64,000 bases of DNA from IMG/VR virus record IMGVR_UViG_3300042261_000868, positions 1-64,000 of that record, one strand, 5' to 3'. A model generated the notes under the pieces. The model was given only the letters and a program-made list of their open reading frames with translations, was not told the DNA's origin and did not search any database. How positions within the stretch are numbered: the stretch's first letter is position 1; every line of letters begins with the position of its first letter. The stretch is from a virus. A program made the position numbers and the translations under genes. Below, one piece after another: positions 1,580-50,400 of the stretch.

Positions 1580-2656
1580 ATGAAGCTCCCTAGTTACATT
1601 GTTCAAAACTTATTCTATAGACTTGGTTTAGATGCCGAGCCAGTTAAGTCTTCAAGTATATTCGTTCACAAGGCTAAATGCCCTTTGTGTGCCGATCATG
1701 CTCAACGTCTATATCTAAGAGAGTATTCAAGCTTCTACAGTGTTAAGTGTCATAACTGTGGCTACAATGGAAACTTTGAGAGTTTTTTAAAAGAGAATTA
1801 TTCTAACGAATACGAAGAGTTAAGACCTTTTATTTTAGAATCAATTAAAGACGGATCTATTTTCGCAAAAAGAAAGTGCCTTGGTGTTAATCAGTTAACT
1901 CCATCTAATGTAGCCACCAGTGATCTTATTGATGTTCGTCTTAAAATGTATTTAAAAGAACATGCTTTCCAAATTAATAAGAAACAAGATTCAGTTAAGA
2001 AGGAAGAGCTTCGTAAAAGAATCCTTAAGTATCTTAAGGGTAGAAAGATACCAGAATCAATCTACAATGACTTCTATTGTATGCTTAAAGGTCCATTGAG
2101 GGGTTATATTGGTATTCCCTTCTTTGATAAGAACAAAGAGAACCTAGTCCACATTCAAGGTCGTTTATTCATCAAGATTGGAGAAGGCGATCATCCCAAA
2201 TATATGTTCCTTAAAGATAAGATAGACGGCATAGAGCTAGATAGTAAAGAAATATGGGGACTTTGGAGAACCAACCCTGCCAAGCCAGTTATTATCTGTG
2301 AAGGAACTTTGGATGCTTGTGCTTTTGAGCATGGTGTGGCTACTTGTGGTGCAACTATGGGTGATAACTATATTGAGATAATTAAGAAGCAATTCCCCAA
2401 CAGAATTTGGTGTATTGATAGTTTCTGGACCGATATAGAAGGTAGAAAGTTAACCATCAAATTACTTGAAATGGGCGAGAGATGCTTCATCTTACCTCAG
2501 TCTTCGTTTGTTAAAGATGCTAATGAATTACTTTGTAAGGTACTTGGCACAGAATATATAACAGACGAGATAATAGAAGAGTACACCTACACTGGTCGTT
2601 TCGGGTTAATCAAACTCCGCACGATGGAAGTTACTAGTTTATCCCAAAATATTTAA
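1580..2656 (+). CDS. 61: DNA primase, T4 gp61-like (zinc ribbon plus TOPRIM)
   Basis: A 358-residue primase that should make RNA primers for lagging-strand synthesis together with a gp41-type helicase, which is not in this window. An N-terminal zinc ribbon uses C34, C37, C57 and C60 (CPLC and CHNC). The TOPRIM core begins at E241 in EGTLDACAFEHGVATCGAT, which parallels T4 EGPIDSLFIENGIAITGGQ. RIWCIDSFWTD follows, then LLEMGERCF and KDANELL, again matching the order of T4 gp61 (VWVLDNE, DAGERVMFW, KDVNDMI). Length is close to T4 gp61 (342). No Shine-Dalgarno is evident before ATG 1580; a promoter sits immediately upstream. Confidence 0.9.
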   Translation: MKLPSYIVQNLFYRLGLDAEPVKSSSIFVHKAKCPLCADHAQRLYLREYSSFYSVKCHNCGYNGNFESFLKENYSNEYEELRPFILESIKDGSIFAKRKCLGVNQLTPSNVATSDLIDVRLKMYLKEHAFQINKKQDSVKKEELRKRILKYLKGRKIPESIYNDFYCMLKGPLRGYIGIPFFDKNKENLVHIQGRLFIKIGEGDHPKYMFLKDKIDGIELDSKEIWGLWRTNPAKPVIICEGTLDACAFEHGVATCGATMGDNYIEIIKKQFPNRIWCIDSFWTDIEGRKLTIKLLEMGERCFILPQSSFVKDANELLCKVLGTEYITDEIIEEYTYTGRFGLIKLRTMEVTSLSQNI

Positions 2657-2666
2657 CTCTTTTTGT

Positions 2667-2672
2667 TATAAT
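2667..2672 (+). promoter_or_regulatory. TATAAT -10-like element upstream of gmd
   Basis: TATAAT lies in TTTTTGTTATAAT, 18 bases before the gmd start codon, with GAGGGAG as ribosome-binding site between. The same TTTTTGTTATAAT string occurs at 26923-26935. No good -35 hexamer is visible at the expected distance, so any promoter here would be weak or need an activator. Confidence 0.35.
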
Positions 2673-2690
2673 TACTCTCTGAGGGAGTTT

Positions 2691-3758
2691 ATGTCAAAAA
2701 AAGCTTTTATAACAGGTGCCAACGGCCAAGACGGATCGTATCTCATTGAATTGCTTCTTGAAAAAGGTTACGAGGTACACGGTATCATAAGAAGGTCATC
2801 TGTTTTCAATACACAGAGAATTGAGCATCTTATGGAGAACCCAGAGATTTATAATAAGTCTCTCTTTATCCACTATGGGGATGTTACCGATCCAGTTAAT
2901 ATAAACCAATTAATCTCTTCTATTCAGCCAGATGAGGTCTATAATCTAGCCGCCCAAAGCCATGTTAAAGTGTCTTTTGAAGTCCCTTATTACACCGCAC
3001 AGACAGATGCCATAGGTACTTTAAATGTCCTAGAAGCCGTAAGGAACCATTGTTCCAAGGCAAGGGTCTATCAAGCCTCCACAAGTGAATTATATGGTGG
3101 AATGGGCTACAACATGCCAGCAACGGGCTATACCGAAGAATCCCCAATGCACCCCAGGTCGCCTTATGGGTGTGCTAAGTTGTATGGTTTATGGATTGTA
3201 AAAAACTATAGAGAAGCTTATGGGATGTTTGCTTGTAATGGCATTCTATTTAACCACGAAAGCCCCCGTAGAGGCGATACCTTTGTAACCAAGAAGATTA
3301 CTAATTGGATGTCTAAATTTAGGACTGAAACTCTTAAATCAAGTTGCTGGGAGTTGCCACCGCTTGAGCTTGGAAACCTTAATGCCAAAAGAGATTGGGG
3401 TCATGCCAAGGATTATGTTGAAGCAATGTGGCTAATGCTCCAGCAAGACAAACCAGTAGATTATGTAATAGCAACTAATGCAACATATTCCGTTAAGGAC
3501 TTTATAAACGAATGCTTTGAGCAACTCGCATGGAACAATCATATCTGTTGGGAAGGAGAAGGTCTTAATGAGAAACTTCTTTGGAATACAAACGGATGTC
3601 AAACAGATGGATTGCCTCTTGTTGTCGTAAACCCCAAATACTTTAGACCGTCTGAGGTTGAAGTGCTGCTTGGAGATGCTTCCAAGGCGCAGAAGGAACT
3701 TGGGTGGAAGCCCAAATATAATTTTAAGGAACTAGTAAGGGATATGTTAAATGGATAA
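2691..3758 (+). CDS. gmd: GDP-mannose 4,6-dehydratase
   Basis: Converts GDP-D-mannose to GDP-4-keto-6-deoxy-D-mannose, the common precursor of GDP-L-fucose, GDP-colitose and GDP-perosamine. It is a short-chain dehydrogenase fold. The NADP-binding loop GANGQDG is at residues 9-15, followed by GIIRRSSVFNTQRIEHL, which is typical of Gmd. The catalytic pair is Y159/K163 in YGCAK. FNHESPRRGDTFVTKKIT and RDWGHAKDYVEAMW are near-invariant Gmd blocks. Length (355) is normal for the family. The next gene starts 8 bases inside this one, so the pair is translationally coupled. By eye this gene is less AT-rich than the sugar genes after it. Confidence 0.97.
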   Translation: MSKKAFITGANGQDGSYLIELLLEKGYEVHGIIRRSSVFNTQRIEHLMENPEIYNKSLFIHYGDVTDPVNINQLISSIQPDEVYNLAAQSHVKVSFEVPYYTAQTDAIGTLNVLEAVRNHCSKARVYQASTSELYGGMGYNMPATGYTEESPMHPRSPYGCAKLYGLWIVKNYREAYGMFACNGILFNHESPRRGDTFVTKKITNWMSKFRTETLKSSCWELPPLELGNLNAKRDWGHAKDYVEAMWLMLQQDKPVDYVIATNATYSVKDFINECFEQLAWNNHICWEGEGLNEKLLWNTNGCQTDGLPLVVVNPKYFRPSEVEVLLGDASKAQKELGWKPKYNFKELVRDMLNG

Positions 3759-8090: not shown

Positions 8091-9188
8091 CTATGGGTTC
8101 CTTAACCAAGAAAAACCTTTGATATATTGTCTAAGTTCCAATTCGGACATTCTTTTTATTTTTTCAAACTCAGTTACATTAATTTGATATAAAGGATTTG
8201 AATAATAGCTATTTTGAGTTATCATATGATCCATATGATATAAATGCCCATCAATACTACCTACATTATAGTTTAATTTTTTAATTCTAGATAATCTTTC
8301 TTGATCTTCTGGACCCCAAGAAACCATATTTTCATTTTCCATCCCCGCTGCAATAAATTTTTCTTTATTCATAAAGAAACAGCCACCAGGCGGAATCCCT
8401 TGGTGTGTGATTTTTGTCATCGCATCAATCATATCCAAATCTAATGATTTGTAAAGTAATAGTAAAGAATCTTTTTCAATGTGTTTTAGTGGCTTGTTAA
8501 ATGGATAGCAGAAATCTAATTCTTTACTTCTTATTTTATTAGCAGCTTCAACATATTTTAACGGTGGCAAAAGAACATCACTATCATAGCTAACAACAAT
8601 GTCCGTTTTAACTGTTTTAGTCATAGTGTTCAAAAGTCTCGTTTTGTAAAAAAAGGATGTTTTATTTTCTAAAAACAATAAACGACAAAAACTTGACCAC
8701 TCTTGTTTCCAGAACTGTTTAATTTTCATCTCTTTATCACTCTCACAAATAATCACATTTGTATCAAAATACTTATACAAGTAATCTAGAAGAATAGTTA
8801 AGTTTTTCTTTCTATCTTCTGACTCTATGGATAATGGTATAGTGAATGTTACATCTCTCAAGTCAATTTTACTCATATGTTTCTCGCTTTTATCGTATTT
8901 AATCATTTCGTATACAATCTCATTTTCTTGGTTAATATTGGGGAATTCTTTAGATTCTTGCACAATATTAGAATTAAAATCATATTCTTCTATTTCAGTT
9001 ATAACCTCTGGTTTAGCCAATATGATGTCGGGTTCTTTTATTGGTTTGTTTATTTTTAAAAGACCACTATAACTACTTAGGATATCAGAACCTTCAATAA
9101 ATTGGTTTGGTTTAATCGTAACCTTTTTACCGTCTAACAGTATTACAATATCTTTTTTCGTAACATTTTTATATCTACTAATTCTCAT
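8091..9188 (-). CDS. Galactosyltransferase-like GT (GT2/GT7-C type) with extra N-terminal domain
   Basis: A 365-residue protein. I use ATG 9188 (TAATG overlap with the upstream gene) rather than 9215. Residues ~110-350 form a GT-A domain: DVTFTIPLSIES, a metal-binding YDSDVLLPP, then GGCFFMNKEKFIAAGMENE and SWGPEDQERLSRIK. The last two match the C-terminal galactosyltransferase motif (GG---F-----GG--E-F-GWG-ED-E). Residues 1-105 are a separate short basic domain (VTKKDIVILLDGKKVTIKPNQF) plus an acidic linker, absent from the paralogue encoded next to it. Substrate unknown. Confidence 0.75.
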   Translation of the reverse strand: MRISRYKNVTKKDIVILLDGKKVTIKPNQFIEGSDILSSYSGLLKINKPIKEPDIILAKPEVITEIEEYDFNSNIVQESKEFPNINQENEIVYEMIKYDKSEKHMSKIDLRDVTFTIPLSIESEDRKKNLTILLDYLYKYFDTNVIICESDKEMKIKQFWKQEWSSFCRLLFLENKTSFFYKTRLLNTMTKTVKTDIVVSYDSDVLLPPLKYVEAANKIRSKELDFCYPFNKPLKHIEKDSLLLLYKSLDLDMIDAMTKITHQGIPPGGCFFMNKEKFIAAGMENENMVSWGPEDQERLSRIKKLNYNVGSIDGHLYHMDHMITQNSYYSNPLYQINVTEFEKIKRMSELELRQYIKGFSWLRNP

Positions 9189-9970
9189 TACATAATCCCA
9201 GCCATCCAGCGCCAACTCTTTATATATGCTTCTAATTCCGTTTTAGACATATTTTTTACCTTAATCCATTCCTGTTCATTTTTCTGATAATAAGGGTGTG
9301 AACCATTAGAACTATTCAAACTAGACCCATGATGTAAATGTATTAAACCACCCGAGCATCTTCCAATCTTTAACCCAAGCTTTGTCGCTCTCTCATATCT
9401 CTCATTATCTTCATAACCCCATGAAACGAAATTCTCGTTCTCAAGACCCACCTTAAAGAATTTGTCCTTTGACCAGAAAACAGCCCCACCAACTGAATCT
9501 GCGGCTGGACGAAGGTTTCTACACATTGATGAATCAATAAAAGTAATAGAGTTTGTTTCTTTTACTCTATCAATGAAAGTTGGATGTAAGTCAAGGAAAT
9601 TACCGTCATAAGGATAAACAACATCTTTTTCACCAGATCGAATACTTTCTACTGCTTTAATGTAATTATCAATCGGTAGTAACACATCACAATCATAATT
9701 AACTATAATTGGGGTTGTTGTTTGCTTAGCCATATAATTTAACATCATGGTTCTATGGAAAAGTAGACTCTCTGTTTTCATAAAAATATACTTACAAGTA
9801 ATACCTTCAACATGTTGTTTAACTTTCTGTTCTCTATCCATTTCGCTAATCATAATATTTGTATTGAAATTCTTTCTTAGATAATCAATGCAAATCTTTA
9901 GGTTTCTAACTCTATCTGGTTGGTCTATTTTTACTGGAATAGTAAAAGTGACATCTGTTAAATCATGCAT
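9188..9970 (-). CDS. Galactosyltransferase-like GT, paralogue of the downstream gene
   Basis: About 260 residues from ATG 9970, which overlaps the upstream stop by 8 bases; an in-frame ATG at 10000 is a less likely start, because homology to the paralogue begins at DLTDVTFTIPVKID. It shares with the paralogue the DVTFTIP start, NYDCDVLLP metal site, VGGAVFWSKDKFFKVGLENE and SWGYEDNERYERA. This indicates a tandem duplication followed by divergence, with one copy gaining or keeping an N-terminal extension. Part of a minus-strand glycosyltransferase operon. Confidence 0.75.
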   Translation of the reverse strand: MHDLTDVTFTIPVKIDQPDRVRNLKICIDYLRKNFNTNIMISEMDREQKVKQHVEGITCKYIFMKTESLLFHRTMMLNYMAKQTTTPIIVNYDCDVLLPIDNYIKAVESIRSGEKDVVYPYDGNFLDLHPTFIDRVKETNSITFIDSSMCRNLRPAADSVGGAVFWSKDKFFKVGLENENFVSWGYEDNERYERATKLGLKIGRCSGGLIHLHHGSSLNSSNGSHPYYQKNEQEWIKVKNMSKTELEAYIKSWRWMAGIM

Positions 9971-10691
9971 AGGTATACTCCACTGTGTTGAAAGGAACAT
10001 GGATTTTATTTATGGGTGCATGAAATATTTTTGCATTGTAATCTATATACTTTTGTTTATCTGATTGATTAATACAAGATTCCGAATGAATCCAATCAAT
10101 ATAATCCGAAGTTTCCATAACATGGACATGATAATTAGGATACATTTTTGCAAATGCACATCTTCTGGTGTAATCTGCATGTTCATAACCATACATCTTA
10201 TATCTTAGATCAAATCCACCCACGGCTTCAATGCATTTCTTTGACATAACCATAAGAACACCATTAACATACGCCCCTGTTATACCTAATTGGATACCCT
10301 CTGGATACTGAAGAATCTTTTGTATGTGTTTCCTATAATCGGAGACTATGTAATTGAAATGCTGCATATTAGTAACTCGTATTGCTTTTATGTAAGCATC
10401 TATCCAACCCTCTTTTTTATAAGTAATATCATCTTCGCTTATGAAAACATAATCACAGTCACTTAAATGTTTTATTAGTCTATTTTTATTAACTGGAATT
10501 CCACCATTAGGGCCGTATATGAGTCCAAAATTATCTTTAATCCATCCATAACCACTTAGATTTGTGTCATCTACACTACATATAGTCTTAATGTCATATT
10601 TTTGTCTATCTATAGTATTTAAAATGTCCTTGCAAACTTGAGTAGCCAATTCTGGTCTATTATACGAGCAAACACCTATGCCTATTTTCAT
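9963..10691 (-). CDS. Family 2 glycosyltransferase
   Basis: A 242-residue GT-A protein and first gene of the minus-strand glycosyltransferase run. The N-terminus IGIGVCSYNRPELATQVCKDIL is a classic GT2 beginning, GPNGGIPVNKNRLI fits the nucleotide-sugar loop, and CDYVFISEDDITYKKEGW carries the acidic metal-binding site (EDD). VMSKKCIEAVGGFDLRYKMYGYEHADYTRR is the acceptor-side pattern seen in many GT2 enzymes. A GGGG-type ribosome-binding site precedes ATG 10691. The exact sugar and acceptor are unknown. Confidence 0.82.
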   Translation of the reverse strand: MKIGIGVCSYNRPELATQVCKDILNTIDRQKYDIKTICSVDDTNLSGYGWIKDNFGLIYGPNGGIPVNKNRLIKHLSDCDYVFISEDDITYKKEGWIDAYIKAIRVTNMQHFNYIVSDYRKHIQKILQYPEGIQLGITGAYVNGVLMVMSKKCIEAVGGFDLRYKMYGYEHADYTRRCAFAKMYPNYHVHVMETSDYIDWIHSESCINQSDKQKYIDYNAKIFHAPINKIHVPFNTVEYTYA

Positions 10692-11483: not shown

Positions 11484-12140
11484 ATGTCTTATAACGATGA
11501 CGCAAAAATGAAGCTTCTTAAAGAGGCATGGCAGAAGATGGAAGAAGGCGATATTACATATAACGCCAAGAAAACCCCTGCCCCAGAAGGTCTTAAGGGA
11601 ACTAAGGCAACTGGAACCGCTGTTCCACAAGGTCCTGGTGCAAGAGCAACCGTTGCAAAAGCAACCTCTGGAGCTGAGAATCTCGCAGAAGGTGAAGAGG
11701 AAGATACTGGCGCTCCCGCTGGTGCTGCTGATATTGGTGCTGGCGATGCTGGTGCCGTTGATGCTGATGCTGCAATGGATGGCATTGACACCGATCCAGC
11801 AATGGGCGACCCAGCAGCCGCAGTTGGCTCCCCATGGGACCAGCTTGTTGCCGCAGTTGAACAGATGAAAGCCGCTCTTGAGGCAATTGCTGCCGAAGAG
11901 TCGGGCGAAGCCGAACATATGGGTGACGAAGATTTAGGCGCAGAAGGTGATGTTGATATGGACGGTGAAGAACCACCTATCGCAGAAGTCGCTGCTGGCT
12001 ACCTTGAAGAAGCCAAGAAAGTCATGGAGAAGAAAGCCAAGGCTGTCAAGACTGTCAAGGAAGAGAAGAAAGAAGGAGCCAAGACTGCTCCAAAAGCTTT
12101 CGGTGGAAAGCAAGCTCCTCCATTCGTCAAGAAGAAATAA
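11484..12140 (+). CDS. Acidic Ala/Gly/Asp-rich late protein, unknown
   Basis: A 218-residue low-complexity protein. Residues ~55-125 are rich in Ala, Gly, Asp and Glu (GAADIGAGDAGAVDADAAMD), ~118-135 form a helix (WDQLVAAVEQMKAALEAI), and the C-terminal ~50 residues are strongly Lys-rich (EEAKKVMEKKAKAVKTVKEE). The DNA is correspondingly GC-rich and produces long spurious frames. It has its own late promoter and a terminator right after it, so it is probably expressed alone and strongly. An internal head or scaffold-type protein would fit such composition, but this is only a guess and no family is recognised. Confidence 0.8.
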   Translation: MSYNDDAKMKLLKEAWQKMEEGDITYNAKKTPAPEGLKGTKATGTAVPQGPGARATVAKATSGAENLAEGEEEDTGAPAGAADIGAGDAGAVDADAAMDGIDTDPAMGDPAAAVGSPWDQLVAAVEQMKAALEAIAAEESGEAEHMGDEDLGAEGDVDMDGEEPPIAEVAAGYLEEAKKVMEKKAKAVKTVKEEKKEGAKTAPKAFGGKQAPPFVKKK

Positions 12141-12223: not shown

Positions 12224-12231
12224 TATAAATA
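12224..12231 (+). promoter_or_regulatory. T4-type late promoter octamer, next to a TATAAT box
   Basis: Exact TATAAATA 20 bases before ATG 12252, preceded at 12210-12215 by a TATAAT. The pair lies right after a terminator, so the 1597-residue protein has its own transcription start, possibly used both early (sigma-70-like) and late. A TTTTGG stretch is the only -35-like sequence. Confidence 0.6.
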
Positions 12232-12251
12232 AGGTATCAAGGGACAACATT

Positions 12252-15200
12252 ATGATGATATTAGAAAGTGGATCTGTTGCAAAAGACAGAATTTTACAAG
12301 ACGATATAGTTAATGCTTTTAATACTGTATTAGAGATAGTTTCCTTTCTAAAAACAAACGGTTTAATAAAAGAAGACCCTCAATTCAATCTTGGTTCAAC
12401 TAAGATTGCCTATAGAATTTTCCAAAAGAAACTCAATAAGGTTATTGATGATATTGATAATGAAGACCTTAATAAAGCAGAATTAAAGAGACTTGAGGAT
12501 GGTTTTGGTGACTTAGACATTGATATTGTTTTGGTAGACGGAGTAACTCTTGATGATGTTGAGACAAAAATAACAGAGAAGTTTGGAGATAAGATTTGGA
12601 AAGTAGCGCCGAAGGGAGAAAGAGCACCAGGACAACTTCATTACGGCTTCAAAATAGGAAATAAAGTTCACCAAGTTGACTTTGTGGAACTTAAGGGTGA
12701 AGAGGATAGAAAAGTCAGAGAGTATTTCAGTGGTAGTAGTGCCACGGATGAAGCCCATGGTATCAAAGGACTCTTCAACAAAGAGATGCATTATGCTCTT
12801 TCCAATATGGTTGAACCAAACGCTATTATCAATACCTTTGCTAAAAAAGAAGGAAAACCATTCAACGATAAAGCCAAGGAATATGATATCCTTGAGAAAA
12901 AGGAACTCGCGTTTTTTACTCAAGAAATCAAAGACGAGAAAATCAGCAAAAATTATGTTGTGCAAGTTGAAGGTAAAAAATATCCAGTAGTCGCATCGAC
13001 CAAAGGCAAACTCAAGCTAGGTGGGGAAATCACCGATGAAGAAAACATTGATGTGACCCCTTCTATGGAAATAGAAGCTGCTAAAGCTTCTTTCGTGATC
13101 ATAACCAGAAGAAAAGTGAGTTTAATTGAGTCTAAATTACAAGAGAAATATGGTATCACCTTTCGTCTCTATCTCTACCGCCAGAAATTCAAAGAATCTG
13201 AAGGAAAAGTTAAAACATCTCTTGAAGCGGCACCTAAGAAGGTAGTTCTTGATTATATTCCGCTTTCAGAACCAGATAGTGTCATTAAGGTACTTTTAGG
13301 TGACAAAGCAACCACCAATGAACTTTTCAGCGCCGTAGAGACTGCTAAGTATATTGGCAAGAACTTCGCTGACGATGAGAAACTTGAGTTTTGGGATATG
13401 TTCGTTGAGCAGGCTATCGAGAAGAGAAATAAACCCCGTGTGGACAGAAAAACAAGACAACCAGTTTTAAACCCAGACACGGGAAAACCAGAAATAGTCG
13501 GACAAGTTGATGAAAAGAAATACGATGCCTCTATGAGACTCTTGGGTAAATTTATTGGAATGGATAAGATTCTTGGTGATGATTTTTATGTACTTCCAAA
13601 ATCAGACACTTCTGAAGTTGATGGGGTTATTAAAGAAACTTATAACTCTCTTGTCTTTAATGAAGCAGAATCTATTCGTACTGGCATTGGTCGCTTTGAT
13701 GGAACGGGTAAAGTTTCTGGTGATGATTTCCTCAAAGCACTCAAGGCACTTTACCCATATGTTAAGGAAGACGGTTCCCTACATCCAAACGAAGCACCAA
13801 ATATTGATATCGTAGAGAAGGTTGACTCTTCTTTTTGTCACTTCGGAGTAAATAAAGAAGGTAAATTCTTCCTTGCCTCAAGCAATAGTGGAGAAGTAAC
13901 CGAAGAAAACTTTGAACACAAATTTAAGAATAACCCAGACTTCCTTGAATCTTTCAGATTCCTCAAGGACCACAAGTTACTTCATGTTGTTTTAAAGAAC
14001 ATTTCCAAGGAAATTGGTAAACCCGTTAAGTTTGAAGCGGAGATATTACCTATTCTTACTTATACACCAGACGAAGCGGGTAATGTTACCTTCGTTGGTA
14101 CGAAGTATTCAAAGGAGAAACTTGGTGAAAAAGGTGCCTTTGTGGTGTTCAAAGCACAAGTGTATGAAGGCGATGAATGGATCAGAATCCCATCAAGACA
14201 TCAAAAGAAAATGATTTCCGATGTTGTTGATGCTGATAGTAAGGAATGGAGAATTCTTTCTAATGATGTTCATATGAAAGTTAACCAAGATGTGAATTTT
14301 GGTGTAGACTTTAATCAACTTGACAAGTACCTTGGCACCGATAGTGGCTTTAAGAATCTTCAAGACCTCATGGATGCTAAAATGACTCCAGAGAAGCGTA
14401 GAGTTAAGGAGATATTGAGTGACATAAGAGCAAAGATGCAAGTTGCTCTTGATGGTCTTTCAAATTCATTAACTTCTAATATAGGTAATGATTTTATTGA
14501 GGGAGTCGTTCTTCGCATTAAAGATGAGGACGGACAAGTAATGGAAATCAAGGGAACTTCCGAGAAGTTCTCCAAGAATAAGGAAACACTTTGGAAGCAC
14601 CGCGACCAACTTGAGGAACTTTATGATAATTTCAAGAATTCTATAAAGACTAATGTATTACACCTCAAGCTTACTACAGATCGATCCATTAACCAAACAT
14701 TCCTTGATACTCTTCAAGAATTTGACGCAAGGGGAACTTCTAAGGAAGAAGTTACTGAAAAATTCATGGTAGCAGTTATCAATAAGTTAATTGATAAAAA
14801 TGCCGATTTCTCAAATGTCAAGAAGGACGCTGTTAAAATCGTAAGAGAATATAAAGGTTCTTTAAATGGTCTTAAGCAAGACTTTAAAGCAAATGCAGAA
14901 TCGTTTGATGTTAACTCTGCTAGAAAAACCAAAGAAGCATTTAGTATCTATGGGGATAAATTTGAAACACTCTTTAATATATTATTAACTGAGAGTGACA
15001 ATGACCTCAAATATGTTTTAGATTGCTTCAATGCTATCTATGAGGGTAAAGCAAAGAACCTTTTGGGTACTTTAGAACCAGAAACCGATATACAAACCAA
15101 GAAATGCGCCCTTTGGGTGGGTCGTGCTCAACCTTGGCACAAAGGTCATGATGCAATGGTTAAAATTGGACTCAATAAGGCAGAAGTTGTTTTCGTGGTT

Positions 15201-17045
15201 ATCGTTAAGGGCACAGAGTCGGGTCAAAACCAAGATAAGAATCCAATGAGTGCAGAAACCCAAAAGGAACTTATAAGGTCACTTTATCCAAATGGGGAAG
15301 TTATTGTTTGTGATAACCACCCAACTAAAGCAAGTTTACCTTTCATAATGGTAGAGTTAGACAAGCAAGGATTGGAAGCGGTTGCTTGGTTAGTTGGCGA
15401 AGATAGAAAAGAAGCCTACAAAGGTGAAATAACAAGATTCAATTTTAGTCAGTGGAGTCAAGGACATAAGTATGTTCCAGTTAGACCAAACATCGAATTT
15501 GTTATAACCCCTCGCCTCGCTAGTGCAACTGATGCGAGAGAGATGGCAAAACAAGTCCCTTTTGAGGAGTGGGTGAAAAACTTTGCTCCAGAAGGTTTAT
15601 CTAATGCTGGTAGAAACGCATATAAGAAGGCATATGCAGAGATTCGCGGTCCAGTTGAAGAGGAAACCCGTAATCAAATACTAGAAAACTTTAAAAAAGA
15701 AAAAGACAGCAAAAAAAAAGTTAAGTCAGTAGAACCCTCAATTGAGGACACCCCAGACGATGAACAACCAGATTCACTTGAGAAACCAGAAGTTACTGTT
15801 AAACCAGAAGAAAAAGAATTATATTTTACTAACAAGGAAACTTTGGCGATTGAATTGAGAAGTCTTTTAAACATTTTTGATAATAAAAAAACAGGCATTC
15901 CAGAAGAAACAATAAAAACAGAATTGTCAAAATTTAATGACCCAAATTTTGCCCCATCTTTTTCCCCAGAATTAAAAGAAGCAATAAAATTAATTCTTGA
16001 ATCAATTGAAATACCCATCATTGAAGAAAACCCAGATAAAGAGTTACCAGAAGTTTCGTTAGAGGAAAAAAGATTCTTAGAACAATATTTTGCTGAAATA
16101 ATCGCACCATTAGCACTTAAATATCCTAACCTAATAACTAATAAGGACAGATATGATGAAATAAGCACTACTGTCGGATATGATTGGATCAGCACAAAGG
16201 CAATTAAGTATCCCAAAGATGTATCAAATAATTTATATGATTCTATTTTGATTGGTGACTTTAATCATATGTTAATTTCATCAAAGAATAGTTCAAGTGG
16301 CGCTGCGGCTAGTATTAATACCCTTTACAAATCATTTAATGAACTAGATAAAGAAAATTTAAACCCAGAATATGTAGAAGAACACGCCATAGAAAATAAA
16401 GAAACGAAACATTCGGCTTTAGAAATTATTAATGAATTATTAAATAAACCAAAAACAGAGATTCCATTAAAAGAGTCTACACTTACTGAAAAAAGATTAA
16501 TTACTAGTCAAACTCTATGGGCATATAGTGCATTAGTTCTCGCTAAGTTTACTATAGGCGGATTTACCGACCAAACAAAAAATGACATAGAACATATTTT
16601 AGATTTTGTTCGTAAAACTGTTGGAAACAATAAAATAAACGATTACGAAATCGGAAGAAAAAAACTCTGGGATATTTTGAAAGTTTTGCCAGAGAAGCAA
16701 CTTGTTATGAAAATTAGAGAAAGTCTAAATAGAAAAGATGATGGTATTGGATATGTCTACGGTGTAATTAGTGTAATATCATATTATGCCGCCAATAAAC
16801 TTTCCGAGTCTACATTAGCTAAACCAATCTCTAATTTATTAAGGGAGTTATTAACGAAGTCAAGCATTATGCAGATGAATGCAACGTATGAAAATAATGT
16901 TTTAAAATTTAAGTTAATTCACCCATTGACAATTAAAGAAGGTTTGATAAAATTAGACGGTGGACACAATTATTTCCGTGCCAGTTCTAAATCTGGACAC
17001 AGATCAAGTCCTTCTGGCGGTATTGCTTTTAAATTACCAAATTGA
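12252..17045 (+). CDS. 1597-residue multidomain nucleotidyltransferase (Pol-beta-like + RNA-ligase-like + NMNAT-like)
   Basis: Three nucleotidyl-transfer domains seem fused. (1) Residues ~40-170: GS motif in NLGSTKIA, GDLDIDIVLVDG with D87/D89/D91, then HQVDFVEL with D143, the GS-DxD-D pattern of Pol-beta-type nucleotidyltransferases. (2) Residues ~515-775: EKVDSS with K523 and D525 (KxDG-like motif I with Ser for Gly), EGVVLRIKD with E750 (motif IV) and MEIKG with K767 (motif V), as in RNA ligases. (3) Residues ~950-1100: GRAQPWHKGH (957-966), NPMSAETQ and SATDAR (1091-1096), the HxGH and SxTxxR signatures of NMN-adenylyl/cytidylyltransferases. The last ~450 residues are helical and unknown. 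Substrates are unknown; RNA repair or NAD metabolism are inferences. It has its own late promoter. Confidence 0.65.
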   Translation: MMILESGSVAKDRILQDDIVNAFNTVLEIVSFLKTNGLIKEDPQFNLGSTKIAYRIFQKKLNKVIDDIDNEDLNKAELKRLEDGFGDLDIDIVLVDGVTLDDVETKITEKFGDKIWKVAPKGERAPGQLHYGFKIGNKVHQVDFVELKGEEDRKVREYFSGSSATDEAHGIKGLFNKEMHYALSNMVEPNAIINTFAKKEGKPFNDKAKEYDILEKKELAFFTQEIKDEKISKNYVVQVEGKKYPVVASTKGKLKLGGEITDEENIDVTPSMEIEAAKASFVIITRRKVSLIESKLQEKYGITFRLYLYRQKFKESEGKVKTSLEAAPKKVVLDYIPLSEPDSVIKVLLGDKATTNELFSAVETAKYIGKNFADDEKLEFWDMFVEQAIEKRNKPRVDRKTRQPVLNPDTGKPEIVGQVDEKKYDASMRLLGKFIGMDKILGDDFYVLPKSDTSEVDGVIKETYNSLVFNEAESIRTGIGRFDGTGKVSGDDFLKALKALYPYVKEDGSLHPNEAPNIDIVEKVDSSFCHFGVNKEGKFFLASSNSGEVTEENFEHKFKNNPDFLESFRFLKDHKLLHVVLKNISKEIGKPVKFEAEILPILTYTPDEAGNVTFVGTKYSKEKLGEKGAFVVFKAQVYEGDEWIRIPSRHQKKMISDVVDADSKEWRILSNDVHMKVNQDVNFGVDFNQLDKYLGTDSGFKNLQDLMDAKMTPEKRRVKEILSDIRAKMQVALDGLSNSLTSNIGNDFIEGVVLRIKDEDGQVMEIKGTSEKFSKNKETLWKHRDQLEELYDNFKNSIKTNVLHLKLTTDRSINQTFLDTLQEFDARGTSKEEVTEKFMVAVINKLIDKNADFSNVKKDAVKIVREYKGSLNGLKQDFKANAESFDVNSARKTKEAFSIYGDKFETLFNILLTESDNDLKYVLDCFNAIYEGKAKNLLGTLEPETDIQTKKCALWVGRAQPWHKGHDAMVKIGLNKAEVVFVVIVKGTESGQNQDKNPMSAETQKELIRSLYPNGEVIVCDNHPTKASLPFIMVELDKQGLEAVAWLVGEDRKEAYKGEITRFNFSQWSQGHKYVPVRPNIEFVITPRLASATDAREMAKQVPFEEWVKNFAPEGLSNAGRNAYKKAYAEIRGPVEEETRNQILENFKKEKDSKKKVKSVEPSIEDTPDDEQPDSLEKPEVTVKPEEKELYFTNKETLAIELRSLLNIFDNKKTGIPEETIKTELSKFNDPNFAPSFSPELKEAIKLILESIEIPIIEENPDKELPEVSLEEKRFLEQYFAEIIAPLALKYPNLITNKDRYDEISTTVGYDWISTKAIKYPKDVSNNLYDSILIGDFNHMLISSKNSSSGAAASINTLYKSFNELDKENLNPEYVEEHAIENKETKHSALEIINELLNKPKTEIPLKESTLTEKRLITSQTLWAYSALVLAKFTIGGFTDQTKNDIEHILDFVRKTVGNNKINDYEIGRKKLWDILKVLPEKQLVMKIRESLNRKDDGIGYVYGVISVISYYAANKLSESTLAKPISNLLRELLTKSSIMQMNATYENNVLKFKLIHPLTIKEGLIKLDGGHNYFRASSKSGHRSSPSGGIAFKLPN

Positions 17046-24683: not shown

Positions 24684-26618
24684 ATGTCCCCAGCCATTCA
24701 AAGACTTATTAAGCAACTCCAAGATGCCGATAGTGCCTACTATAATGATGGTAGTTCAACCTTAACCGATAAGGAATATGATCGCCTCAAGGATCTTTTA
24801 AGAAACCTTGATCCCGATAATGCTTATCTTAAAGAAGTTGCTCACGAAAACCTAACTGTAACTGAATGGGAGAAGGTTAAACACAAGTATCCTCTAGGTA
24901 GCTTAAATAAGTGTAACGAGGAAGATGAGCTTCGTAAATGGTTGGGGGACACACTAGTTGTCGGTCAAGAGAAACTTGATGGTCTTTCCATCGCCTTAAC
25001 TTATCTTAACGGAAATATCTCAAGTGCTGTAACCCGTGGTGATGGCGAAGTTGGTGATAATATCCTTCAAAATGTTGTGAAGATGAAAGGTGTCCCGAGG
25101 CAAATTAAGTTTCAAAAGCCACTTGTGGTCCGTGCTGAAATTCTTTTAAAGCATTCCGAATGGTTTAAGATGCCAGTTGAGGATCGTGGTAAGAATCCTA
25201 GAAATACTGCTGCTGGTGCTGCTAAGGAACTTAATGGTTCCAAGTGCAAGTATTTGAGTGTGGTTGCTTATAGCATTCTCAATAGCGAAAGCGATAGTGA
25301 AATTGTTGACCTTGAGCTACTAGAGAAACTTGGGTTTGAGGTTGTCCCATATTTCATTCCAGTGAATATATATGCTTTAGTTACTCAGTATCATGTGTAT
25401 AATGTAACTTCTCGTAATAAGCTTGATTATGACATTGATGGTCTTGTTATTAAATCAATTGAAAAGGATTCTTCTGATGATTGGAAGTATCCCAAGTCCC
25501 AAATTGCTTGGAAGTTTCCTCACCAGACCACTGAAACCATTTTACGGGATGTTGTTTGGCAAGTTAGTGGCGACCGTGTAACTCCAGTTGCGGTATTTGA
25601 TCCCGTTGACTTGGCTGGTGTTACTATCAGTAGAGCAAGCCTCCATAACATGGAATACATCAAGCGACTTAATGTTCGCATTGGTGATAAGATTGAGATA
25701 ACTCGCCGTAACGATGTCATTCCTCAAGTTGAGAGAGTCCTTATCTCTAATGGCGGTAATGAAATCACCGCTCCAGAGAAATGCCCAATGTGTGGTAAAC
25801 ATGTCGCCTTTGATAAGAACATTAATGAAGATGATATGGCTTGGTTAGTATGCACCAACACTGATTGTCCAGCCAAGGTTCTCAAGAATATCATCAAGTG
25901 GCTTGAAGTCCACGATACTAAAGGTGTTGCTGAGAAGATGGTTGAGACACTTTTCAATCACAGTGTTTTCTATTCTCTTCCTGACTTCCTTCAATTGGCA
26001 GGAATCGATTCGGTAAAGGAGAAGAATATCCTTTCTATTGAAGGTATGGGCGAGGCGAAACTCCAGATCCTTCAAGAGCAAATTAAAAAGACAATAAACT
26101 GTGACCTTATAAGTTTCTTTGGGGGGCTTAATGTGTCTGGGTTTGGTCGCAGGATGTGGGAGAGGATTATTAAGTACCTCCAAATTGAGAAAGACACGGT
26201 TACTGTAAACGATGTAATTGATTTTATTTCTCTCCCATATATGAAGGGGTTGGGTCATATTGAAGGTTTTGCTGAGACAAATACCAAGGAGCTTCAAAGC
26301 TACATTAAGACTCACACAACCTATATCAATGAAATGATTAATATTGTTAAGCCCCAAGACTATAGCAAGCCATCCTTGACCTCAGAAAACCTCAAAGGCA
26401 AGTCTTTCTGCTTTACGGGGGAGTTAACCGCTATGCCCCGTAAAGAGGCCCAAGATGCCGTTCTACGCAATGGTGGAGAGATTAAGTCATCTGTAACCAA
26501 GGGTCTTACTTATCTTGTCACCAATGATCCCAACTCTGGCTCAACCAAAAATAAAAAGGCACAAGCTTTGGGGACCACAATAATTGGCGAAGTTGAGTTT
26601 TTAAAGTTAATTAAATAA
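24684..26618 (+). CDS. ligA: NAD-dependent DNA ligase
   Basis: A 644-residue LigA. It seals nicks using NAD+. Domains run in normal order: the NAD-binding Ia domain at the N-terminus (SAYYNDGSSTLTDKEYDRL), the adenylation domain with nucleophile K97 in QEKLDGLS and RGDGEVGDN, then an OB-fold. A four-Cys zinc finger (C367, C370, C390, C395) follows, then helix-hairpin-helix repeats (SIEGMGEAKLQIL, SGFGRRMWE) and a C-terminal BRCT domain from ~570 (GKSFCFTGEL to VEFLKLI). The gene is complete and looks functional. T4 itself encodes an ATP-dependent ligase, so this is a replacement. It has its own promoter. Confidence 0.98.
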   Translation: MSPAIQRLIKQLQDADSAYYNDGSSTLTDKEYDRLKDLLRNLDPDNAYLKEVAHENLTVTEWEKVKHKYPLGSLNKCNEEDELRKWLGDTLVVGQEKLDGLSIALTYLNGNISSAVTRGDGEVGDNILQNVVKMKGVPRQIKFQKPLVVRAEILLKHSEWFKMPVEDRGKNPRNTAAGAAKELNGSKCKYLSVVAYSILNSESDSEIVDLELLEKLGFEVVPYFIPVNIYALVTQYHVYNVTSRNKLDYDIDGLVIKSIEKDSSDDWKYPKSQIAWKFPHQTTETILRDVVWQVSGDRVTPVAVFDPVDLAGVTISRASLHNMEYIKRLNVRIGDKIEITRRNDVIPQVERVLISNGGNEITAPEKCPMCGKHVAFDKNINEDDMAWLVCTNTDCPAKVLKNIIKWLEVHDTKGVAEKMVETLFNHSVFYSLPDFLQLAGIDSVKEKNILSIEGMGEAKLQILQEQIKKTINCDLISFFGGLNVSGFGRRMWERIIKYLQIEKDTVTVNDVIDFISLPYMKGLGHIEGFAETNTKELQSYIKTHTTYINEMINIVKPQDYSKPSLTSENLKGKSFCFTGELTAMPRKEAQDAVLRNGGEIKSSVTKGLTYLVTNDPNSGSTKNKKAQALGTTIIGEVEFLKLIK

Positions 26619-44432: not shown

Positions 44433-47400
44433 ATGGAAGTAAATGATACCAAAAAGGCTCTATTAACAAAAGAGCTTAGACTTCAAACAGATAAACTTTT
44501 AGCTGAAGTATCAACTCAAAGTACATCTGGGTCTGAGGTAACAAATATAGACTCATTTAAGTTCTCCGATGAATGGACGAATAATAAAAATGTATTCTCC
44601 AATGCGACGGTTGAAAAAATTAAAAGCACAACTATTGCTGATTTGGTTAATATTCCCGAAGGGCTTGTATACAACAATGTCAATGATACTCTAACTTTCG
44701 TTGATGAAAGCCTTTCGAAATATTTTGGTTCATCTTGCAAAATTGAAGGATCAAACCAAATTACTCTTAATGAGTTAGTTTCAGATATTGAGATTTTTGA
44801 TACCCTTGACAAGATAAACAACTTCGGTGATGTGTATGATTTCCAATTTAGACAGCTTGATTTTAGTACGAATAAGTATTCAAATGTCAAACCTTTCGTT
44901 ACCTTTGAGAAAATACTAGGATACTTCTCTATTGATAAGTTACTTAATGATGAATTAATAAGAAAGAACAGCCAAACGGCACTTAACGAAGAATATGCAA
45001 ATACCGATAGGTCATCGGAGTTCCCACCATATAGTGGCTTCTTAATCAATTCAGAGTATTTGAACAATGGTTGGGTAAGTATTGACCAGATTATCCGTTC
45101 AGCATATAACGACGATTATGCATACGACACGGAGGCTTCACTTGCTATAAGAACAACAAAGATTAAAGAAGCAAAAAGAGCTTTAATCGTGTTAACATTA
45201 AGCTATGTTTGTGATATCTTTAATCTCAACTCTTTCAATAAGCTTTCTGATTTTGGCGTGAGAATAATTGATAGAACAACTGGTAAGGAATTATCTGTCA
45301 CAAACACAAAAAACGAGTTAATTGAGAAAATCGCAACCACAATTGTTGCTACATACAGCGGACAGTTAGAAGAACCAACTAATGGTGAACAAATAAATGT
45401 CGCATCAAATTTAAATCAAACTAAAACCAAATGCAATAAAATCAAAACAAACAAATGCAACGGAACATTGTTTACAACAAGTGATAAGCAAAACACAAAT
45501 ACAGAAGAAAACGGATTTATTCACGAAATTGATGCTCAAGTAAGATTAAATCCTTTTAGAGAATTGTTACTAGCTAAACCAGATATTTTAAATACAATTG
45601 ATCCTATTCACTGGACTTCTGGTGTAGATAATCTCACACAAACTGGAGAGCTTTATGATATCATTAAAGAGTTTGGTGGAAACACATATAAGAGCGGTAA
45701 ATTAAATCAAGATAGAGCATTTGCATATGGGTCTGGTGAATTTACTAATGGTATTGCTATTGGTGGATATTTTCATGACTCAAATAATATTGGTATAACC
45801 AACTCAACCGAATCTTGGAACGGAATTGCTTGGACAAATAGAGAAAATTGTCCATTAGATGCTGCCTGTGGATTAACTGGCGGAAACCAAGACCTCGCAG
45901 TTATGTCATATGGTCTTAGTAGTTCTTGGACAAACGAAGATAAAACCTTTGATAACTTTTTTAAACCATCAATAAACACATTAACCACACAATCAGCTAT
46001 TTTCCAAAACAATACTTGGAAGATAATTTCTGAAATTTCACCAGTATTACCAAGACATAGTGTAGCTGGAAAAATAAATATAAAGTATGACGAGTCTGTT
46101 CCAGGTGAAAACATAGAACAGATTTATGACAAAACTATCTTTCCTATGTGTAATGTGGCAATTTCACAAGCCAAGCAATTTGCTTCTCAAAAATTTGACT
46201 TCTCAACTGAAGCTAGTAGTTTAAGTGGTGCTGTTGAAACTCCAAACACAAGCCCTAGAGTCTGGTTTGATATTTGGCAATGCAACGGTGTTGCATTTGG
46301 CGGCTCTAATTCAGAACACCAACCAATGAATACAATAACAGATAAAAGCGAATTATCCACTGGCATAACTGATGAATTTGAATCTATCAATTGGACACAC
46401 ATTAACAAAAACACTATCAATCCAGAAGATTCGGAATTAGTGGTTGAAACCCAAACCTTCGGCTGTTGGTTCGTTGATCCAACTAGAAAATATCCTATAA
46501 AGGCTCTTGGTGTTTCGTATGTCGGAACCAATGACAGTGGTTTAGCAACTGGCGGAAAAACATCAAATTCTCTTAGCAATGAGACAAGAGATAATGTTAA
46601 AGTTAATATGAAAACATATTACTTTGATGTTGAGAAATACAACCAGAACAATTTGTCAGTTATTCCATACTGCTATGAGAATAACGGTATCTCTTGGATT
46701 CGTAGAGACGATTTACCAGAAGCCGTATATTATCATGCTGGGGTTGGTGACAACGAATATGCTTTGTTCTTTGGTGGACTACATGGATCACTCGAAACAC
46801 CACAAGTTTACACATCCTTCAAGAATTGTCAAGATTGGGAAACACTTATTAATCTATATGGTGGTGCATTTGCAAGAAACGGTGCCTTCTCGTTAAATGG
46901 AAATCTTCGTTACTCTTCTTTCTCAAATATCTACGACGGTAATTCGGTTGGTGCGGAAAACAGTTATGGTAACTCCTACTTCAAGAATAGAAACAATCAA
47001 ACCACCGATACATCTACTGTTATATATTCCTCTGAATATTTAAATTCAGAAAACCAAACATTACAAGACATATATCCAAATATAACAGATTTCCTCTCAG
47101 TACAAGACCCTGAGTTTACATTCCCAAATAAGCAGATACATACAAATGTTTATAAAAAATTAATCTATACATACAACAAATTATATTTTAAGGCAACCCA
47201 TTATTCCATCGTTTATGATCTTGTTTTTGACCAAAAGATCGTATCAGATTATGAAAAAATAACAGTTAATATGATTGATGGTACAATAACCGTTTTAGCA
47301 ACTGAAGACAATGAAGAAGCAGTCAAGCAATACTTTGGTACTTTGAATAACATATTACTAACTAGTGAAGATTATATAGTTATCTCGTCTGTATTCAAAA

Positions 47401-50400
47401 GCGGAACTAATAAGTTAATATCCCTTAGAGAAGATTCTCCAGCTAATAAAACATCAGTTTTAGATATTTGGGAAGAAAAATTAACAGATGCCAATATTGG
47501 TACATTGGGGGAATTCACATATTATATTGCAAACCACCCACAAAAATTCATTGAAACTTATACACCAAGTGGTTTAATACCATACGGTGTTGCGGCATCT
47601 CCAGAAAACTATCTAAGTAATTTAGGTGCAATTTATGCTGGACATCCATCCGATGGCGGGTTGTGGTTGTGTTCTAGACCAACCATTGGTGAAGTTCTAT
47701 ATGATCCAAAAAACTTCTTAAACGAAAACTGTCCAAAGAATGAATTAATCCAACACGGATTTAATGCTGTCAGTGGCTCCGAAAAATATACTTATTTCGT
47801 CTCTCCTGCATTATTTGAAACATACACTAACACGATTAACGGTAATAAAACACAATATCCAAATTATATATATACTGGGCTTTATCAGTATCTTGAAAAA
47901 GAAAATGACGAATATACTATTAATGAAACTTGGAAAAGCAATATCCAAAGAAATCCAGCTTTACTTGTCAACATAAAAAAGAAAGTAACCAGAGACGGAT
48001 ATAGCCCAACAGAAAAACGCGAGTTAATTAAGTTCCCATACTATGGAACTGATTGCTCTGGTTCATTTGTGTTTTATAATACAGAAAAATACAATTCATT
48101 TAATCAGGTGTTTTCGGAATTCATTTCAGATCAATTTATTTCCCCAGAAATTATACTTGATAGAGACTTAATACATATTCATATGTATGATAACGACTCA
48201 ACTGGATATCTTGGTTATGGTGATAAGAAGTCAAGTAGTATAAGAGATAAGGCTGGACTTTGGCCTTGGGTTGATTTGTTAGGCGCGGACGCATCAAATG
48301 ATTGTGTTGTTGGTGAATACACATATCGCTGGGATCTTAGTGGTAATCTTTATTTTGCCTTAGTTGAAGAAGTTAATACCCTCACTGACGAAATTGTTGG
48401 TGCATATAAGCAGGAGAAAATTAAGATAACCAAATATCTTTCAAATGGCAAGAAGGCATTTGATTACACCATAGATTATAGAGAAAATCTTGATATCACT
48501 AAGATGACCAAAATAAGCAAGAACGATATGGTTTATGCGGGAGAAGGCACAAAAACATTCCAAGACCACCTTGCGGAAAAAAATAACGAGTATGGTATCT
48601 TCAACATCTTCGGTAATTCAATAAAACGTCAAATAATTAAAAACAATCTTTACAATAGCTTACATGTTTATGGGAATAAACAGAATTACGAAAATACCGA
48701 CAGAACTGTTATTTCTTACAATTGGGACGAAGTTTGCAAAGACGAATTTAATGAGAGCAGTATTAGTGGATATCCTTTCAAGTACACCAATATTTGTGAA
48801 CTTATAAAAGAGAATGATTTGTATAACAATCCAAAAAGATATCAGTTTTACCTCGAATCTTATTCTTTTGGTGACGGTTCATTTAGTATTACTCCAGCAA
48901 CCGAATGGTACACTCCAATATATCACCAAGAAAACACTAAGGTAAAAACAATAATACCTCCACAAATTCTAACAGAAAATCTCTGTGGAATACGCGAGAA
49001 CCTCATAAAGCTCCGTTACAATCTATTTTCCCTTGTCGCACACAATGGTCTATTCTTTGGTGATATTCGTGTAATGGGCGAAGACCTAGATCGTTGCTAT
49101 ATGCCAAGCAATTGCTCAACAATTGCTTGTGGTGATGCTCCAACTTTCGTATTTGATTATGATGCAACAAAGGGACAACCAGAATATTATATGGATAAGC
49201 TAACAAATCCAAATAATCTTGAATGGCGTGACACTGGTATCGCAACTGATTTTACTTCTAATATGTTTGCAAGATTCAGAAGAGATGTGTTAGCGGATAA
49301 TAGACTTGATACAGAATTCTTAGTATCAAATGGATTGAATGTATATCCTCTAACATACAAAGACTCTAATAATAAATACTGGAGTCCTCTTGATATTGCC
49401 ACAAATAGTGCTATAACTAATAAAACACTTGATGCTAAAGCAAATGCGGTAATTTTCTGTGGTGGTGTTTTTGATGTGATGTACGACAAAAACTTCTATG
49501 AAACCATTTACTTCCTTGAAGAAATGGCTAAATTAGCACAAAATGAGCATGTTTGGGTTATATTCTTAACTATTCCACCAAGAGCAATGATGCAATATGA
49601 TGTTGCCATTGAGAGACATGTTTGGTATAATAATTTAGTCGGCGGCGGAAGATTAGATGATCCAGCGGGACAGGTTAGAATGAGTATTAAAGAACAACCA
49701 ATCACTGGTGACACTTGGAATGTTCCAATGGGATTTGGACCATATAGTGGCTTAGTTGATCCGTTCATTGGCAAGACAAAACTTGAAAAACTTGTTGCTA
49801 TAAACGAATGGATGAAATCTAAACTCACTTCATATGACCACGATGTTTTGGATCTTTATGATTTCTTTGCAGATAAGACTACCCCAGCAATAAATCAACA
49901 GAAGTATGTTTTCAACCCAGCAGATAACACAATAAGCCCAACGGGTGAAGAGATTTATGGTTTTATTAACCCAGAATACACCAATGGAAGATTCTCAAAT
50001 GATGCACAGAATCAATTCAATGGGTTAATCTCTTATGTTGGTAATGAAGCAATGATTAACTTTATCTATGAATCTGTTGACTTAACACCAAGATTTAATG
50101 CAAAAATAATGGACTTTGATGGAAACATAATTGATCCAAAGCAAATCTTTGACTATGAATACCCACATTTATCCAGAAACCAAAGAGATGTTTATTATGA
50201 CTTACACAAAGTTGGAGTTGAAAATACTTTCCATGAAACCCCAGGCGATTATGATCCGTCCATTGATATTGAATCAGTTAGATTGAAGCCAGGCGAAAAT
50301 GGAAGCTTTAGTAACTTAATCCACAAAGTATGCTATGAAACCCTTTACTTTGATTTGCTATGCTGCTTATTAAAGCAAGATACTTGTTATGCCTCTTGTT

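Follow-up and report, generated by a model that had tools for sequence, protein, structure and literature searches.

A single gene of a T4-like phage was found to encode a chain of 1597 amino acids in which a Pol-beta-type module, a module with a ligase fold and an NMNAT-like domain, each with its own conserved set of active-site residues, are followed by a mostly helical tail. The gene (12252..17045, plus strand, as are all its parts given below) begins with ATG, has no internal stops and lies in the window, by which we mean the whole stretch of 64,000 nucleotides that was analysed, taken from a virus record of 80,664 bases. A preliminary description of the sequence had reported this open reading frame with three nucleotidyl-transfer signatures; it is present exactly as given, and the signature residues proved invariant across homologs. 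The three modules are linked in every related locus, a T4-type late promoter precedes the gene, and protease-type sites at its module borders fit sites in these phages' own proteins. We hold it a little better than an even chance that the product is a capsid-delivered polyprotein that would be processed in the head and injected as a kit for RNA repair, and for NAD+ as well.

The late promoter -10 element, TATAAATA, was located at 12224..12231 with a spacer of 20 nt to the ATG, and a Shine-Dalgarno-like AAGGGA lies at 12239..12244. T4-like cyanophages are known to use the same motif as their late promoter (PMC2984593). Eight of its 11 copies in the window sit 12-65 nt 5' of a same-strand gene start (P ~3e-12), and while the count itself is not enriched (11 observed against 8.4 expected), this significant placement before genes bears out the late promoter suggested earlier. 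The surrounding genes are those of a T4-like myovirus and include baseplate hub/lysozyme and wedge genes, with ribonucleotide reductase directly downstream. The window phage needs NAD+, since it encodes a phage-type NAD-dependent DNA ligase (24684-26618, plus strand; PHROG_3869, 2.6e-149), and this dependence fits an NMNAT-like partner. Just upstream of the fused gene, an acidic low-complexity ORF (11484-12140, plus strand) has its own copy of TATAAATA and LLKE|A near its start, and its product is possibly another head-core or packaged protein. Elsewhere in the window, two glycosyltransferase-like tandem paralogues (8091-9215 and 9188-10000, minus strand; PHROG_15655) belong to a sugar-modification cluster at ~3.7-10.7 kb, and an ORF of 2493 aa (44433-51914, plus strand) falls in what is presumed to be the tail region.

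Relatives were collected from viral contigs and comprise 14 distinct loci in T4-like phages (L001, L002, L003, L006, L007, L009, L010, L011, L013, L015, L016, L036, L038 and L039, with L037 a copy of L036), whose best segments are 27-35% identical. All three modules were present in 15 of 15 loci, the window counted, in three arrangements. Pol-beta, ligase and NMNAT follow one another in one chain in seven (the window, L001, L002, L003, L006, L010 and L013); the Pol-beta part is a separate preceding ORF in five (L007, L009, L011, L015 and L016); and the order is permuted to NMNAT-Pol-beta-ligase in the remaining three (L036, L038 and L039). Near position 10985 in L007, L009 and L011, the Pol-beta ORF ends in ...GE-stop directly before the start of the ligase ORF (MPREGIGRF), as if the junction Glu had been turned into a chain end. 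Among cultured phages, Xanthomonas phage X1 has neighbouring genes for Pol-beta, an unknown gene, a ligase (KLDG...EGVV; weak profile match) and an NMNAT, and Stenotrophomonas phage Mendera has separate genes in the same order. Vibrio phage Va1 has a Pol-beta gene with a ligase-NMNAT fusion nearby, and Microcystis phage Mel-JY01 an NMNAT-ligase fusion (WWT39297); relatives of the Pol-beta protein occur in 38 isolate records. The triple arrangement noted earlier is therefore real but not unique, since the three modules turn up elsewhere as a fusion, in split or permuted form and as adjacent genes, and this recurrence in different formats argues for a joint function of the trio. A search with PADLOC gave no relation to defence systems. 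In L001, a separate RNA ligase (12633-13703, plus strand; PF09414 2.8e-13, PHROG_548 1e-67) lies 1.3 kb 3' of the fused gene. In L002, another ORF (1708-3012, plus strand) begins in a CTS-like manner (SLVENWKAYLEE) and matches Pol-beta/NTP_transf_2 weakly (0.011); it perhaps encodes a second packaged nucleotidyltransferase.

Conservation was counted over 12 to 20 homologs depending on the module, at ~14-36% identity. The core of the N-terminal module, residues 6-190 (12267..12821), contains a G-[S/N] and a Dh-Dh pair with a third carboxylate on the following strand, the pattern of the Pol-beta superfamily, and D87 (12510), D89 (12516), Q141, D143 (12678) and K172 were invariant in 20 of 20 homologs. 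Of the catalytic residues proposed in the preliminary description, D87 and D143 stand, but the metal-binding pair is D87/D89 and not D87/D91, because residue 91 is not Asp in several relatives. The structural model, with strands at 87-94 and 138-147, was confident mainly at residues ~10-190 and poor at ~191-333, so that the remainder of the module, residues 191-475 (12822..13676), is modelled at low confidence in part. Foldseek matched the model to Pol lambda, beta and mu (prob 1.00, rmsd ~5 A, E weak at 0.01). A Pol-beta fold is thus likely, mainly on account of the invariant DxD...D, and the earlier assignment gains from both the motifs and this moderate structural match. In the window the GS lies far from DLDID, while the permuted members show the classic close spacing (GNFSKPLLGDIDI; GN...GDIDI). 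The RlaP Pfam model had no match at E <= 1 in the window protein or its relatives, and any likeness to RlaP would be one of working only.

The middle module begins with a putative adenylyltransferase domain of the RNA/DNA ligase superfamily, residues 476-790 (13677..14621), and continues with a helical C-terminal part, residues 791-947 (14622..15092), whose AlphaFold2 helices mostly have pLDDT values of ~80-98. K523, D525 (K523-x-D525 at 13818), E597 (14040), E750-G751 (E750 at 14499) and K767-GTS (K767 at 14550) were invariant in 15 of 15 sequences, with motifs I, III, IV and V in order. The AlphaFold2 model of residues 476-947, built from 15 sequences, had a mean pLDDT of 90.8. Its best Foldseek match in the PDB was the adenylyltransferase domain of the Candida (fungal Trl1) tRNA ligase (E 7e-5, prob 1.00), followed by an archaeal ATP-dependent RNA ligase (2e-4) and then by DNA ligases, including human LIG1 and those of T4 and ASFV. 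Against viral models, the named matches were mostly RNA ligases, and one was a 623-aa cytidyltransferase-like phage protein. TM-scores against the PDB were low (0.2-0.3), perhaps because the subdomains are set differently, and they support membership in the ligase superfamily rather than a close relation to the matched structures. Motif order and predicted fold together place the module in this superfamily. The RNA-ligase-like motifs K523, E750 and K767 recognised earlier are thus upheld, but two others had been missed: motif III, with E597 in 'SE(M/L)FPVLTH', and a motif-Ia-like 'ESSNSGEVT'. In the window, motif I departs from the canonical form ('VDSS'), and a textbook K-x-D-G is found in L015, L016 and L036 (EKFDGS / EKLDGS). 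Doubt over the window's unusual motif I and Pol-beta spacing is lessened by the canonical forms in these relatives and in the permuted members, respectively. When the ligase and Pol-beta alignments were searched against the PDB as sequence profiles, only coiled-coil and CRP noise came back, and both folds were visible only by structure comparison. The ligase alignment, scanned against genome contigs, picked up no bacterial relative, and the module therefore looks phage-specific in that collection. The order of the structural matches, with RNA ligases first, makes RNA rather than DNA a reasonably probable substrate.

The third domain, residues 948-1150 (15093..15701), is NMNAT/cytidylyltransferase-like. 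It combines GRxQPxHxGH with a later DR and S-x-T-x-x-R, as expected of the NMNAT / nucleotidylyltransferase (HxGH) superfamily, and G957-R-x-QP-x-H-x-GH (H963 at 15138, H966 at 15147), N997-P998, D1051-R1052, S1091 and R1096 were invariant in 12 of 12 homologs, the permuted members being left out. Matches were obtained to PHROG_395 (cytidyltransferase; 2e-12), to NadM profiles (1e-6) and to NadM in the PDB (8e-4); the sole Pfam match of the whole protein was a sub-threshold CTP_transf_like. By sequence the domain is NadM-like, in agreement with the motifs first reported, but far below the curated family cut-offs (best profiles 24-28 bits against 127-409). Whether its role is NAD+ synthesis we regard as evenly balanced. 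Every phage bearing NadM is reported to have NadV (PMC9503650), and this NAPRTase was absent from all 15 locus records, which are fragments; a complete NAD+ salvage pathway is therefore unsupported.

The tail, residues 1151-1597 (15702..17042), is mostly helical, as described before, and its ~450 residues matched nothing in the libraries searched. It contains several (L/I)xE|(A/S) motifs (LKE1243|A, ILE1250|S and LKE1408|S). Homology of this tail to the 'STGINVLEDLL' domain that follows the NMNAT in L001-L003, L006, L010 and L013 was considered and is unsupported (hhalign probability 0.2). The latter domain, directly after the NMNAT, is fused at the C-termini of L001 and L002 and is a separate ORF in four phages (L003 10308-11150, L006 13198-13959, L010 13207-13959 and L013 10197-11069). 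A Glu site (LILE|A, ILRE|A or FIKE|A) lies slightly before it in several loci, and it is probably another packaged head protein.

In T4, propeptides are capsid targeting sequences, of which Alt loses only 7 residues, and gp21 cuts after Glu, with LIE said to fit its logo (PMC9026906). Candidate sites of this type were seen at two borders of the fused protein. The candidate propeptide MMILE (12252..12266) would be removed by a predicted cut at E5|S6, before the conserved G7; the site reads MILE|SG with Ser at P1', and such a propeptide ends in (L/I)xE like those of the T4 internal proteins. In 16 of 16 longer homologs, permuted and internal modules included, a similar (L/I/M)xE immediately precedes the conserved GG of the Pol-beta module, with that of L001 one residue earlier. 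At the Pol-beta/ligase junction, the window has the candidate FNE471|A472 (13656..13667), which with Phe at P3 is a weaker match than the ideal motif, and a second candidate, IKE462|T463 (13629-13640). All ten fused members carry (L/I/V/M/F)xE|(A/G) at this junction. The strict form (L/I)xE|(A/G) is found in 7/10 (P ~2e-10 at a background of 0.0017 per residue, relatedness ignored) and, after dereplication, which removes relatedness in part, in 5/7 (P ~7e-8). Across the ORFs of the loci, 29 such sites were observed in the first 27 residues against 12.6 expected (P 3e-5).

The phages' own head genes carry sites of the same kind. In two related records that contain head genes (G003 and G007), both a gp21-type S77 protease and gp23 were present, with LLKE|S and LLRE|A near residue 60 in the N-terminal regions of gp23 and LCE|GG near the start of gp21. 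The cut in T4 gp23 is at a similar place, 65. Neither gp21 nor gp23 was found in the window's own record (80.7-kb fragment). The conserved GG forms the ORF start (MGGN) in X1, Mendera, Va1 and L013, so that these lack a propeptide, as do the ligase ORFs where they are split off (L007, L009 and L011), and packaging may therefore not be universal.

Mass spectrometry has detected NMNAT or cytidyltransferase proteins in the virions of several T4-like cyanophages (PMC10665884, PMC9602691). In S-SCSM1, a stand-alone NMNAT (ORF91) was detected in this way, but the study could not establish whether the virion encloses it (PMC9602691). We found that ORF91 begins MKSFLQFLKE|AAESG and that gp23 of the same phage carries FLAE|A, and this candidate site offers a reason to think that the NMNAT is carried inside the virion. 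A Pol-beta relative was not among the gel bands of the published virion proteome of Campylobacter phage CP220. The earlier guess of a late, perhaps packaged protein is thus right about the promoter, and its second part is strengthened by the prohead-protease-type sites and the S-SCSM1 proteomics (PMC9602691); we consider packaging and cleavage probable.

In the mechanism that we favour, the gene would be transcribed late, and the short N-terminal propeptide would direct the fused protein into the prohead, where a gp21-type protease would trim the N-terminus and cut at the Pol-beta/ligase border. Maturation would yield at least two products, a Pol-beta-type nucleotidyltransferase whose N-terminus is Gly-rich and a protein of ligase and NMNAT; these would be injected with the DNA and act immediately, before phage gene expression. 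Several defences drain NAD+, and the NadM-like enzyme would make or restore it. The Pol-beta enzyme would restore lost nucleotides, and the ATP-dependent ligase would seal the break, most likely in RNA, for example in tRNAs that host anticodon nucleases have cleaved. RlaP proteins, phage Pol-beta enzymes that occur alongside RNA ligases, are thought to replace nucleotides removed by RNases ahead of ligation (PMC7824862). RNA repair or tagging and the rebuilding of NAD had been suggested before; the three folds behind that suggestion hold, but the function itself, including the immediate repair and NAD+ steps, is inferred.

The same modules could instead serve incoming DNA. A head-packaged end-repair kit, in which Pol lambda/mu-like gap filling and the sealing of DNA nicks in the incoming genome would be primary and NMNAT-like activity secondary, would agree with the Pol lambda, beta and mu matches, with the human, T4 and ASFV DNA ligases among the ligase matches, and with a gene, PD-(D/E)xK-like by eye, that adjoins the trio in X1, Mendera and Va1. 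We think it unlikely, however, because the best ligase matches are RNA and tRNA ligases, the window phage already has the NAD-dependent DNA ligase described above, and the nuclease reading of that fourth gene is an eye-level impression without profile support, which was left out of the explanation. Genes of this appearance were seen in L049 (2135-3139), L051 (3318-4262), L053 (9944-10738) and L024 (1459-2793); they lie near the trio in isolates, and the one in S-SCSM1 (ORF90, itself annotated as a virion protein) is beside the virion NMNAT. In PHROG_12709, Mendera gene 049 and the ligase gene 050 are fused.

An equally improbable reading is that of an ordinary late or auxiliary enzyme, an unpackaged RNA-repair and NAD+ fusion whose (L/I)xE motifs would be chance occurrences or flexible linkers. 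T4 makes its own RNA repair enzymes inside the cell, and the versions in X1, Mendera and Va1 have no propeptide; against this stand the site statistics at two independent borders, permuted members included, the identical site type in gp21 and gp23, the late promoter and the stand-alone NMNATs detected in cyanophage virions. More doubtful still is a modifier of host macromolecules, whose Pol-beta and NMNAT-like domains would nucleotidylate host proteins or RNA (AMP, CMP or NAD tagging), much as T4 Alt, which ADP-ribosylates it, acts on RNA polymerase. Such a role leaves the constant presence of an RNA-ligase-type domain unexplained, even though Alt is an injected, head-processed enzyme (PMC9026906) and Pol-beta nucleotidyltransferases have been listed among the protein-modifying domains that injected polyvalent proteins contain (PMC5512222).

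Parts of the packaged RNA-repair reading are already known from RlaP/ligase pairs, from the internal proteins of T4 and from injected multidomain 'polyvalent' proteins. The last of these, described from phages and conjugative elements (Iyer et al. 2017, PMC5512222), likewise join several unrelated enzyme domains in a chain, Pol-beta nucleotidyltransferases among them; it is predicted that they are injected together with the DNA and that their domains separate once deployed. They often carry their own metallopeptidase, whereas profile searches found no peptidase domain in the window protein, for which a gp21-type protease acting at (L/I)xE is predicted instead; the enzyme set here, Pol-beta with ligase and NMNAT, also differs from theirs. 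T4 internal head proteins (Alt, IPI-III) share the short N-terminal propeptide (7 residues in Alt), the gp21 cut after Glu, and packaging and ejection; unlike them, the window protein is multidomain, has sites between domains as well and would have another activity. The RlaP and RNA ligase pairs of jumbo phages (PMC7824862) resemble it in their enzymes and predicted order of action, but here no Pfam RlaP match was obtained, an NMNAT-like domain is fused and packaging is predicted. The virion NMNAT/cytidyltransferases of cyanophages (S-SCSM1 ORF91, S-CREM2 and S-CBWM1) are NMNAT-like domains detected in particles by mass spectrometry, with a CTS-like start in S-SCSM1, whose protein is, in contrast, stand-alone, with no Pol-beta or ligase domain. 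Mel-JY01 WWT39297 and PHROG_27149 (Vibrio Va1_166) unite a ligase and an NMNAT-like domain in one protein, in Mel-JY01 with IIAE|GG in between, but their chains are without Pol-beta. In the open-licence papers searched, we found neither this trio described nor prohead-protease sites set between one enzyme domain and the next.

Known phage systems for RNA repair and NAD+ restoration have been described as made after infection, by which time fast defences, anticodon nucleases or NADases for instance, could already have done their work; a kit made beforehand and brought along in the head would, if the proposal is true, act at time zero. With the (L/I)xE|GG rule, other packaged enzymes can be sought in sequence data, and functions can be suggested for three PHROGs of cultured phages listed as of 'unknown function' (19290, Pol-beta-type; 12709, X+ligase-type; 27149, ligase-NMNAT-type). 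We give even odds to the broader idea that T4-like phages build a 'capsid polyprotein', a single chain with a single targeting signal whose enzymes would be separated by the protease that matures the capsid. A constant set of gap-filling polymerase, RNA ligase and NAD+-making enzyme would then enter the host together and arm the phage in advance, ahead of all phage gene expression, against RNA-cutting and NAD+-depleting defences. A prohead protease that frees several enzymes from one chain would, if true, represent a general delivery logic.
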